39,213 bases of DNA, taken from a virus. A program made the position numbers and the translations under genes. The notes under the pieces are model-generated. The model saw only the letters and a program-made list of their open reading frames with translations. It was not told the DNA's origin and did not search any database. The DNA is taken from the IMG/VR virus record IMGVR_UViG_3300009506_000097, positions 1-39,213 of that record. One strand, given 5' to 3'. Of the stretch, positions 6,306 to 38,622 are shown one piece after another; the stretch's first letter is position 1, and the number at the start of each line of letters is the position of its first letter.

Positions 6306-6602
6306 ATGGCTGAAGAACAGAAAGAAGAAAACGGTCAAGACCTTGAAGGGGCAAGACCGGAATCGGGCAAGACCGATAAACCGAAAGCCGGAAAGGCGAA
6401 GGTTAAAAAAGAAAAGGCAGATAAGCCCAAGGGTAAATATGTGGGCAAAGAATTGAAAATAAAATTGCCGGAATCGGGTACGGAAATTGAAGGGCTTTGC
6501 CTTGCCGAACGTAAAATTAATGGCGGTGAGCAGGTATTTTTAAAGGTTAAAGGACAGGGTCAAGCTTCCCGCTTTTTTGATGTTTCAAATATCGTAGAAT
6601 AG
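6306..6602 (+). CDS. Hypothetical protein with Lys-rich N-terminus and intragenic repeat
   Basis: A 98-residue protein of unknown function. The ATG at 6306 is chosen because AAAGGAG (6291-6297) lies 8 bases upstream; the in-frame TTG at 6288 lies upstream of that site and has none of its own. Residues 1-45 are low complexity, dominated by K, E, G and P. The C-terminal half looks like a small beta-barrel (KYVGKELKIKLPESGTEIEG). Residues 9-23 (GQDLEGARPESGKTD) are encoded by a repeat also present in the gene at 20224. It lies between capsid and connector genes. Confidence 0.7.
   Translation: MAEEQKEENGQDLEGARPESGKTDKPKAGKAKVKKEKADKPKGKYVGKELKIKLPESGTEIEGLCLAERKINGGEQVFLKVKGQGQASRFFDVSNIVE
6332..6377 (+). 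repeat. GGGCAAGACCG repeat inside the 98-residue gene
   Basis: Three units near 6333 (GGTCAAGACC), 6349 and 6365. It aligns with 20460-20505 at 37 of 46 bases in the same frame. The two host genes are otherwise unrelated. Confidence 0.8.
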
Positions 6603-20223: not shown

Positions 20224-20547
20224 ATGAACTGCTGTTTAGAACACTCAGGGCATGAAAGCCGGATTAAAAACTTAGAGGATGATCAAAAGGTTATTATGAC
20301 TAATACAAACACCGCGCACCGCAGGATAGACGGTGTAAAAAACTGGGTGATAGCTGGAATGACAGCTTTAATAATCCAATTGATAGTCGTTATAATCGGC
20401 TATTTTAAATTTAATAATTTAGCGGAGCTGGAAAAAAAGACTGAAACAAGAAGTGAAATCGGGCAAGACCTAAATCGGGCAAGACCGGAAACGGGCGGGA
20501 CCGAAACAGGGCAAGACCGATTTACATATTTTCGGCAATTTCGCTAA
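20224..20547 (+). CDS. Small coiled-coil membrane protein (XhlA/holin-like)
   Basis: A 107-residue protein at the end of the late operon. Residues 10-40 form a short coiled coil (HESRIKNLEDDQKVIMTNTN), followed by one transmembrane segment (about 44-65, VIAGMTALIIQLIVVIIGYF). This layout matches XhlA-type proteins that assist holins. The tail after residue 78 is encoded by a tandem DNA repeat (GQDLNRARPETGGTETGQD) shared with the gene at 6306 and is not typical of the family. It ends two bases before the convergent HNH gene, with no terminator between. Confidence 0.62.
   Translation: MNCCLEHSGHESRIKNLEDDQKVIMTNTNTAHRRIDGVKNWVIAGMTALIIQLIVVIIGYFKFNNLAELEKKTETRSEIGQDLNRARPETGGTETGQDRFTYFRQFR
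20460..20522 (+). repeat. Tandem GGGCAAGACCG repeat inside the membrane protein gene
   Basis: Four units of the GGGCAAGACCG type start near 20461, 20477, 20494 (GGGACCG variant) and 20509. The first 46 bases align with 6332-6377 in the gene at 6306 at 37 of 46 positions, and in the same reading frame, giving GQDL-x-x-ARPE-x-G in both proteins. Confidence 0.8.
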
Positions 20548-23505: not shown

Positions 23506-23663
23506 TCAAAGCTCGATATATCTTCTAAAGGGAAGCTATTTAAATTTTTTCTAGCTGCGTAGTTAGTCATAGTATCTATAAAATTCAAAGCTCGATATAT
23601 CTTCTAAAGGGAAGCTATTTAAATTTTTTCTAGCTGCGTAGTTAGTCATAGTATCTATAAAAT
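23506..23663. repeat. Perfect 79-bp tandem duplication
   Basis: Copy 1 is 23506-23584 and copy 2 is 23585-23663, identical at all 79 positions. It covers the 3' end of the VRR-NUC gene and the gap before the methyltransferase. Because 79 is not a multiple of three, the nuclease reads out of copy 2 into copy 1 in a new frame. It ends seven residues (EFYRYYD) after SSF instead of at the ancestral SSFD stop still visible next to the methyltransferase start. Confidence 0.95.
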
Positions 23664-23913
23664 CCCGGCTCGCTTGAACAGTATCACAGCATCGGCAAGG
23701 GATACCAGCATCTTTTAAATCTAATGCTGTTGCTAACTGTTGTATTGTAGCTTTCTTACCGGTAGTTTTATACTCTATAGTAAAAGTTATACCGTTTTTA
23801 AAGAATATTCGATCGTGTCTACCCCGGTTACCGGGGCTAGCCCATTTATATACAAGCCATCCGCGTGCGCGGGCATACTTCACGCCGTCAGCTTCTATCA
23901 GGGATTCTTTCAT
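23563..23913 (-). CDS. VRR-NUC domain nuclease
   Basis: A 116-residue single-domain nuclease. SPGNRGRHDR (about 26-35) supplies the metal-binding Asp (D34), FTIEYKTT has the catalytic E-x-K (E47, K49), and a Gln lies shortly after (IQQL), the order expected for VRR-NUC enzymes. Phage forms cut structured DNA such as flaps or Holliday junctions during replication and recombination. The C-terminus was altered by the 79-bp tandem duplication. It overlaps the upstream gene by four bases. Confidence 0.88.
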   Translation of the reverse strand: MKESLIEADGVKYARARGWLVYKWASPGNRGRHDRIFFKNGITFTIEYKTTGKKATIQQLATALDLKDAGIPCRCCDTVQASRDFIDTMTNYAARKNLNSFPLEDISSFEFYRYYD

Positions 23914-36590: not shown

Positions 36591-36633
36591 AATTAAACCT
36601 TTTGCTGATATGATGATTTTTAAATAACGCCTG

Positions 36634-36816
36634 TTAATAATCCCTTAAATATTGAAAATTAAAAATCGCTTTTGCCTTTTCTTCATTATTGCAATTCATA
36701 GTGTCAATCAAGTCATCTACCCACATAGGTAACCTATATCCTGCTTTGCGTTTGTTTTTTTCATACGCTGCCCATGCGGTAGCTTCAATTAATTTGTGTG
36801 CTTTTTTTTTCCACAT
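36634..36816 (-). CDS. Small hypothetical protein downstream of repeat A
   Basis: A 60-residue, mostly helical protein (KKKAHKLIEATAWAAYEKNK) with Trp-rich segment YRLPMWVDDLID. AAAGGAGG lies 5 bases before ATG, directly after repeat A. First gene without a repeat behind it. Unknown function. Confidence 0.63.
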   Translation of the reverse strand: MWKKKAHKLIEATAWAAYEKNKRKAGYRLPMWVDDLIDTMNCNNEEKAKAIFNFQYLRDY

Positions 36817-36834
36817 TTTTACCTCCTTTCGTAT

Positions 36835-36888
36835 GCCCTGGACTTGGGACCGAACAGTGGTTTACAGCCCCGAAGGGCTGCCCTCACC
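36835..36888 (-). repeat. Intergenic double-hairpin repeat, copy A
   Basis: A diverged copy of the 53-bp repeat at 37164 and 37561. In minus-strand sense the first hairpin CAGCCC-TTCG-GGGCTG is intact (loop TTCG instead of TCCG), while the second is weakened by changes. It fills the space between the stop at 36895 and the ribosome site of the gene at 36816. Confidence 0.88.
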
Positions 36889-36894
36889 TATTTG

Positions 36895-37146
36895 TTACGC
36901 ATGCTGAGGCTCGCGATAACCGGCCTCGACAGAAACATATATACCGTCATCACCCTGCTCAACCCATCCCCTCATATAGTAGCCAAAAATCGGCATCTGT
37001 CCGATTATGCGGCAAAATTTGTATGCAGCTTTTTTGCAAACATCAGGTGTGCCAGATGTAAACATATGGTCGTTTTTGTCTTTTATATAGCGCACATTAT
37101 AATCTGTGGCGCATTGAGTGGCAATTGCTGTAAATGTCTGTTTCAT
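36895..37146 (-). CDS. Small hypothetical protein between repeats A and B
   Basis: An 83-residue protein with AGGAGG 6 bases before ATG. The middle (SGTPDVCKKAAYKFC, then RIIGQMPIFGYYMRGW) weakly resembles the middle of the gene at 37616 (NTPAGAKKAVRYAKKW), so the two may be distant relatives. Beta-rich acidic end (VEQGDDGIYVSVEAGY). Unknown function; position suggests an early accessory or anti-defence role. Confidence 0.65.
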   Translation of the reverse strand: MKQTFTAIATQCATDYNVRYIKDKNDHMFTSGTPDVCKKAAYKFCRIIGQMPIFGYYMRGWVEQGDDGIYVSVEAGYREPQHA

Positions 37147-37162
37147 TTTCTCCTCCTGGTTG

Positions 37163-37217
37163 CGCCCGGACTTGGGACCGGGCAGTGGTTTACAGCCCCG
37201 GAGGGCTGCCCTCGCCG
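37163..37217 (-). repeat. Intergenic double-hairpin repeat, copy B
   Basis: Fifty-five bases identical to copy C (37560-37614). In minus-strand sense it has hairpin 1 (CAGCCC-TCCG-GGGCTG), a nine-base linker TAAACCACT, and hairpin 2 (GCCCGG-TCCCAAGT-CCGGGC). It begins one base after the TAA of the gene at 37219 and ends shortly before AGGAGG of the next gene. Confidence 0.93.
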
Positions 37218-37218
37218 A

Positions 37219-37542
37219 TTAATATTCCCGATGCTGATAACGGCCATAATTATAAATGACATATTTCCATCCGCTCTGCGTATAATGATGAGCCTCGATG
37301 TCCCGTATTAAAACAACTGTTTCCTCACTCTGCATGAGTGCTGTTTCCTCCAACGTTGGCACACGAAATCCGGGTAACGCTGCATCATAAATTTTTCCGT
37401 CTCTAACAGATGAAATCAATCTAATTCTCCGTGCCTCCCGCCGCACCGTCTCACGCTCTGATTTTGTCAGACCCGATACCCATTTATACGGATCGCTGCC
37501 CCGACCATGTATAACCGCCGTTTCGCTGATTATTTTTTTCAC
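37219..37542 (-). CDS. Small hypothetical protein between repeats B and C
   Basis: A 107-residue protein. GTG at 37542 is chosen: AGGAGG lies exactly 6 bases before it, as in the neighbouring cassettes, while the ATG at 37548 touches the ribosome site with no spacing. Helical basic region (KSERETVRREARRIRLISSV), then strands (ETVVLIRDIEAHHYTQSGWK) and a Tyr-rich end. No family recognised. Confidence 0.65.
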   Translation of the reverse strand: MKKIISETAVIHGRGSDPYKWVSGLTKSERETVRREARRIRLISSVRDGKIYDAALPGFRVPTLEETALMQSEETVVLIRDIEAHHYTQSGWKYVIYNYGRYQHREY

Positions 37543-37559
37543 TTTCATCCTCCTTGTTT

Positions 37560-37614
37560 CGCCCGGACTTGGGACCGGGCAGTGGTTTACAGCCCCGGAG
37601 GGCTGCCCTCGCCG
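37560..37614 (-). repeat. Intergenic double-hairpin repeat, copy C
   Basis: Identical over 55 bases to copy B. It starts one base after the TAA of the gene at 37616 and ends 5 bases before the AAGGAGG of the following gene, so it occupies essentially all of the intergenic space. Confidence 0.93.
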
Positions 37615-37615
37615 T

Positions 37616-37846
37616 TTAATATGGGTATTCTTTCAATTCTCCTGCGCCATCTGGTGTGGGGTCGATTGTGTACTGTTGCTCACCTATCCAGATGTTAGGT
37701 TTGTTATACCATTTTTTAGCATATCTAACGGCTTTTTTTGCGCCTGCGGGAGTATTGGCGAAATCAGTAATATGCTCTCCAATACCGTAAGGGGCTTGGT
37801 TACCGTTGCCCTTAATTATTATTCTGTCCGTTTTTGTCTGTGTCAT
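37616..37846 (-). CDS. Small hypothetical protein, first of the accessory operon
   Basis: A 76-residue protein. ATG at 37846 has AGGAGG 5 bases upstream like the other cassette genes. An in-frame ATG at 37876 with AGAGG is also possible and would add ten residues. NTPAGAKKAVRYAKKWYNKP followed by NIWIGEQQYTIDP suggests a helix plus strand fold. It is the first leftward gene after the iteron region, next to an AT-rich stretch with TATATT at about 37886-37900. Confidence 0.65.
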   Translation of the reverse strand: MTQTKTDRIIIKGNGNQAPYGIGEHITDFANTPAGAKKAVRYAKKWYNKPNIWIGEQQYTIDPTPDGAGELKEYPY

Positions 37847-38059
37847 TTCATCCTCCTGGTTTGTGTTGTTTGTCATGTTAACCTCTATATATAATATACA
37901 CAATTGTTTAACAAAAGGCTAATCGTTTGTTTCTATCAAGATTTTGATCTTAATAGCTAAAACCTATCATACAGACCCTGCTATATAGCCCTATGCATAT
38001 AGACCCCGCTATATTGCGCTTTTTATAATTTGCTGTTTATTTAATATTTAGGCCTGTTT

Positions 38060-38491
38060 TGTCTTGTTGTCTTTTTTGTCTTACAGAGTGACAAGACAGC
38101 GCAAGTACTATATTTTATTGGAGTTACAAGCGTTTAGGTGTGAGCCTTTGTAAGTACTATATTTTATTGATGTTATAGAATTCTGTCTTGTTGTCTTACT
38201 ACTTTTACTAAGTCACGTGTGAATGGAATCTTAGTTACATACAAAGGCTAAAATAGGGGTATACCATATACTGTGGTCTATTGTTCGATAAGTATGAAAC
38301 TGTTAGTAAATTTTTTATTTTTACGTAAAGGATATAACGCTTTATGCAAGACAAAGAGACATTTTCTTGTAACACTATATAACTATGGTAGTTACAGTGT
38401 CTTGTCACTTTTGACCCTCACAAGACAGCGACAAGACAAATGGTATTAAGCTATTTAAATTCAATTAGTTACGTTTTTTAATGACAAGACA
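38060..38491. repeat. Seven-copy ACAAGACA/TGTCTTGT iteron cluster
   Basis: TGTCTTGT is at 38060-38067, 38184-38191 and 38398-38405. ACAAGACA is at 38091-38098, 38420-38427, 38431-38438 and 38484-38491. Near-copies (CAAGACAAAG at 38347, TTGTCTTAC at 38191 and 38076) add to these. The copies at 38398 and 38420 face each other as an inverted repeat. Confidence 0.9.
38103..38169 (+). repeat. 18-bp direct repeat pair
   Basis: AAGTACTATATTTTATTG occurs at 38103-38120 and 38152-38169, 49 bases apart, between iterons. Very AT-rich, a candidate unwinding element. Confidence 0.9.
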
Positions 38492-38546
38492 AATCCGCTT
38501 TTATTGGCAGTATAGGCTAATTAAAAGTATAATGGAATAAAGGCAG

Positions 38547-38622
38547 TATGACCGGGATGGCTTAACGGTCTGTACTTCTACTCAGTCAGGGCGAAAGTAT
38601 GCGGTATCCGCACTCGGTCATA
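38547..38622. other. tRNA-sized structure closed by an 8-bp stem
   Basis: TATGACCG (38547-38554) pairs perfectly with CGGTCATA (38615-38622). The 7-bp core encloses exactly 74 bases, the size of a tRNA, and a GCGG-TAT-CCGC hairpin sits near the 3' side. There is no T-loop motif and no convincing anticodon stem, so it is not called a tRNA. It lies just before the HNH ribosome site. Confidence 0.5.

Follow-up and report, generated by a model that had tools for sequence, protein, structure and literature searches.

The window analysed here comprises 39,213 bases and is a viral record of IMG/VR. Towards its right-hand end, it carries on the minus strand an array of four small genes set apart by three copies of one element, and this element is, as judged by sequence and alignment, a self-cleaving ribozyme of the type-P5 twister family (Rfam RF02684). 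Membership in this family, covariation of the helices, placement at gene junctions and recurrence in many phages are established by the analyses described below. The best explanation for these observations, to which we assign a probability of roughly 70%, is that a polycistronic early transcript is split up by the ribozymes into individual mRNAs.

The array is read leftwards, and all of its genes (predicted as open reading frames) and ribozymes are located on the minus strand. The first gene (37616..37846) encodes 76 amino acids, or 86 if an upstream ATG is used; it is preceded by a CCAGGAGGATGAA leader and has no ribozyme upstream. It is followed by copy C (37563..37613), the second gene (37219..37548; 109 amino acids), copy B (37166..37216), the third gene (36895..37146; 83 amino acids), the diverged copy A (36838..36888) and finally the fourth gene (36634..36816; 60 amino acids). 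A preliminary description of this DNA had reported three copies of a repeat, with B and C identical over 55 bases and A diverged, each preceded by a stop codon and followed by an AGGAGG-type ribosome site. All of these statements were confirmed. If the flanks are included in an 80-nt frame, the identity to B is 94% for C and 74% for A (repeat family D1). The copies begin 2 nt (C and B) or 6 nt (A) after the preceding stop codon, and a Shine-Dalgarno (SD) site and start codon follow 14-21 nt downstream of each. The neighbouring junction (36591-36633) is without a copy.

Copies A, B and C match RF02684 over the full model (positions 1-58) with 42.3, 47.6 and 47.6 bits, respectively, relative to a gathering threshold of 37.6. 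Exactly these three are found as gathering-level Rfam matches in the whole window, with E-values of 5e-7 to 1e-5 (5.1e-7 for B and 1.2e-5 for A). Read in the direction of the RNA, each copy consists of the 3' strand of P2 (GGC or GGU), loop L1 (GAGGG), the P1 hairpin and U^AA, followed by the 5' strand of P2 (ACC), L2 (AC...) and P4 with its loop L4 (GUCCCAAGUCC). The stems P1, P2 and P4 are found in all three copies, and the two pseudoknots of the window are T1 (L1-L4; GGG/CCC) and T2 (L2-L4; AC/GU). CUGU^AAACC stands opposite GAGGG in 3/3 copies (the U-A cleavage dinucleotide of the L1 loop, located opposite GA). Based on the alignment to RF02684, copy C is expected to be cleaved between 37589 (U) and 37588 (A); the expected positions are between 37192 and 37191 for copy B and between 36864 and 36863 for copy A, again on the minus strand. 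The window copies therefore share sequence, fold, both pseudoknots, the U^AA site and the P5-permuted order with the Rfam family. Their core is unchanged, but no P5 stem can be made out, and in B and C an A.C mismatch takes the place of the first P2 pair. Copy A has a fully paired P2 and a single C.A mismatch in P4. Because of these mismatches in P2 or P4, some of the window copies may cleave slowly.

These assignments replace the earlier view of the element as two hairpins joined by TAAACCACT. What had been described as two separate structures is one pseudoknotted ribozyme, and the presumed linker comprises the expected U^AA site and one strand of P2. The folding energies of the single copies do not carry any signal (z-scores of only -0.5 to -0.9), and the two-hairpin clue was therefore not what mattered. 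An integron attC-type cassette site was also considered by eye and rejected, since such sites have GTTRRRY / RYYYAAC cores, whereas the GTT of the element reads GTTTACA on the plus strand and not GTTRRRY.

The family is not restricted to this phage. A first element pattern matched 28 stretches in 22 IMG/VR contigs, and a model search of these whole records together with the window yielded 114 copies in 23 records. Two further patterns added 171 copies in 68 more records. The total of 285 copies in 91 viral records is a lower bound, because the search patterns were strict, and it includes near-duplicate records (G003 and G017 have one array in common) as well as one record, G115, in which a terminal repeat may be counted twice. 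By our own count, 46 records contain at least two copies and 23 at least five, with a maximum of 20 in one record. No match was obtained in 14 control genomes at the default threshold. Among the GTDB species genomes, a loose pattern was found in 24, only one of which, an Oscillospiraceae MAG, harbours true copies; there are two of them, and they show the same layout of stop codon, ribozyme and SD site. A blastn search with one copy against named phages returned only short matches at chance level. One phage (G013) also carries a pistol ribozyme (L075:1479-1542), which precedes a P5 twister by ~660 nt; this fits the view that selection acts on cleavage. The 23 records did not contain any hammerhead-1 match, a result of little weight, as this search matched nowhere, controls included.

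The position of the copies relative to the surrounding genes is highly regular, and every copy of a given array lies on one strand. In the first set, the median distance from the stop codon to the ribozyme is 0 nt, and it is 6 nt or less for 81% of the copies compared to 7.6% of control positions. An SD site and start codon follow at a median distance of 25 nt, within 40 nt in 85% versus 27% of the controls. A second set of 86 further copies gave very similar values, both for the stop codon (77% versus 7%) and for the SD site and start codon (84% versus 18.5%). According to a simple gene-calling script, 54 of the 90 intervals between neighbouring ribozymes contain one gene, and the remainder contain two to six. 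Junctions that carry a ribozyme have a median length of 86 nt, whereas those without are tight (median 3 nt); in 29 of 59, the genes abut or overlap. Closely linked genes thus form groups, and the ribozymes are found where one group gives way to the next. The preliminary description had proposed to look in other genomes for the element between different small genes, and in dozens of phages it does occupy such a position. The genes of the arrays vary among phages. Those with family matches include helicases, RadC and DUF932, and some of the ribozyme-flanked genes in other phages are large replication or recombination genes. One array protein (alignment A1) has a match to the domain PF20274, whose name refers to the processing of cyclic phosphates.

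Covariation was analysed with 105-106 unique copies from the 23 records. Pseudoknot T1 is fully paired in 104 of 106 unique copies, while shuffled L4 triplets gave a mean of 76 and a maximum of 81; the shuffling ignores relatedness, but the variants come from many different records. Compensatory changes occur at all three pairs of T1. For T2, where either of two offsets was allowed in data and control alike, pairing was found in 104/105 copies (shuffled mean 67, maximum 81). P2 and P4 also covary (105 copies); pairs 1-3 of P2 hold in 101-105 of 105 copies, and UAA is present at the cleavage position in 102/105. P2, P4 and both pseudoknots thus covary far above the shuffled controls, which argues for a fold under selection. 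The earlier suggestion was that the element is involved in RNA processing or attenuation. Processing is correct, since the element belongs to a self-cleaving ribozyme family. Attenuation is unsupported, because not one of 114 copies has a TTTT within 20 nt downstream. The stable GC-rich stems observed between the cistrons would also suit a transcription attenuator or terminator, or a processing hairpin for an RNase. But a terminator scan of the window region did not return any terminator on the minus strand, and neither type of element needs the covariation observed for both pseudoknots. We therefore give hardly any credence to this reading.

The array proteins themselves provided few clues. 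Searches of Pfam and PHROG with all four did not yield any match, even at E<=1, so that they still belong to no known family, as stated before; their sizes had to be corrected to 60, 83, 109 and 76 residues. Searching viral contigs with the 76-aa, 109-aa and 83-aa proteins did not reveal any relatives. The genes for the 83-aa and the 76-aa protein had been suspected by eye to be paralogous, but a comparison gave no support. For the 109-aa protein, the PDB offered a weak match to Paratox (E 0.22), which was at chance level and was rejected. Structure models based on single sequences were too poor to use (pLDDT of 34 for the 109-aa protein, i.e. low confidence, and 59).

The window also contains repeats of other kinds. 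A perfect 79-bp tandem duplication (23506-23663), the length of which is not a multiple of three, lies at the 3' end of a gene (23563-23913). A GGGCAAGACC-type repeat (6327-6392 and 20455-20536) is common to two different proteins and encodes GQDL..ARPE-like peptides. A long noncoding stretch in front of the HNH gene (37880-38560) contains GACAAGACA-like direct and inverted repeats, including 44-nt arms at 38087-38130 and 38366-38409. Inverted copies of a GGGGTCTATATG-type repeat are found near both ends of the record (40-75 and 37983-38017), with a possible link to packaging or the genome ends.

The window derives from a tailed phage with a large terminase (TerL) ~50% identical to that of Geobacillus phages. 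In relatives at 73-83% TerL identity, the adjacent replication genes are still present, as is the HNH gene, but there are no ribozymes and no detectable copies of the four array genes. The block of ribozymes and genes is therefore accessory. Its absence from these relatives is in agreement with the earlier suggestion of a modular gain and loss of small accessory, possibly anti-defence, genes by recombination at the repeat. So is the fact that blocks of homology in three related array phages often begin at ribozyme edges, although these numbers fit ordinary mosaicism at gene borders equally well. In the strict form of this idea, the ribozymes would mainly act as short homologous joints for shuffling small accessory genes, with cleavage being incidental. 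The identity of B and C over 55 bases would fit, and for the phages G004, G014 and G015, four of six left ends of homology blocks are located within 13 nt of the 5' edge of a ribozyme. Moreover, G004 and G015 carry unrelated genes in one slot beside a homologous gene of ~358 aa. However, this is a small sample of three related phages, for which mosaicism predicts the same breakpoints. Copies within a record are barely more alike than copies from different records (0.61 versus 0.53), and compensatory mutations in the helices preserve structure rather than DNA homology. We regard a primary role as recombination joints as rather unlikely, while cassettes may plausibly be exchanged at the repeat as a by-product.

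If the ribozymes serve to cut the transcript, as we favour, the leftward early operon would be transcribed, and each copy would fold and cut its own RNA at U^AA. The polycistronic message would thereby fall into separate mRNAs, every one of which has a ribosome site of its own. Cleavage by twister-class ribozymes leaves a 2',3'-cyclic phosphate at the end of the upstream product and a 5'-OH at the start of the downstream product. In the P5-permuted order, the fold is open at a place other than P1 or P4, so that P1 should stay whole on the upstream side and P4 on the downstream side. The upstream mRNA would therefore end in an intact P1 hairpin, and the downstream mRNA would begin with the P4 hairpin. 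Hairpins at both new ends should resist decay, and the level of each cistron could then be set independently. More speculatively, since the stop codon adjoins P2 and L1, a ribosome halted there would sit on the ribozyme core, and cleavage may have to wait for its departure. We infer cleavage in the cell, the chemistry of the ends and an effect on stability or translation, as well as a benefit to the phage; placement at gene junctions would also be expected of any tolerated intergenic element. That the closest relatives manage without the array counts against the explanation.

The products of two adjacent ribozymes would carry the ends, 5'-OH and 2',3'-cyclic phosphate, that are substrates of the RNA ligase RtcB. 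The excised cistrons could therefore also be joined end to end by such a ligase to give circular mRNAs, and the complementary halves of P2 and T1 could keep the ends together. One array phage (G012) encodes RtcB (C1:50628-51827; L209) on the same strand, ~2.8 kb from a five-copy array, and ligation therefore remains a minority reading. But this is the only one of 23 array records with an RtcB gene, and the window has none. Furthermore, spliced or circular products of tandem hammerhead ribozymes were sought and not detected in the study on prophage hammerheads (PMC3088659). We consider circularisation of the cistrons very unlikely. Equally small is the chance of the wider proposal that P5 twister arrays are a general phage device for releasing early cistrons whose ends can be ligated, and that RtcB-type ligases turn some of these RNAs into long-lived circular mRNAs. 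Such molecules would be the natural counterpart of engineered circles made with twister ribozymes and RtcB.

Cutting of the transcript into separate mRNAs thus remains our preferred reading. A fixed unit (stop codon, ribozyme, ribosome site, start codon) that shows full covariation and recurs as many as 20 times in a phage points to this one role, and the arrays offer a large supply of natural elements for dividing polycistronic messages. What twister ribozymes do biologically has been called largely speculative (PMC5408937). We did not find a description of intercistronic P5 arrays in the literature searched, which did not cover the original 2014 twister paper. In bacteria, twister and hammerhead ribozymes are enriched close to Mu-like phage genes and to one another, for a reason given as unknown (PMC10085705). 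This association resembles the P5 arrays in that twister ribozymes are found in connection with phages, often in more than one copy; the arrays differ in that the position within operons was measured here. The closest parallel is provided by the clustered hammerheads of prophages, which flank single genes or short blocks and for which cutting of a long transcript has been proposed (Perreault et al. 2011, PMC3088659). In that work, tandem prophage hammerheads cleave in vitro, and one triple set also does so in E. coli. Both systems have several ribozymes on the same strand that flank phage genes or blocks, and for both, transcript cutting is the proposed function. The P5 arrays belong to another ribozyme class and reach up to 20 copies per phage. 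They sit right at the stop codon, ahead of the ribosome site that follows, whereas the hammerhead clusters are described in the passages considered as flanking genes, with no such placement given. Because transcript cutting had already been proposed for the prophage hammerheads, the P5 arrays are best viewed as a variant of a known arrangement.
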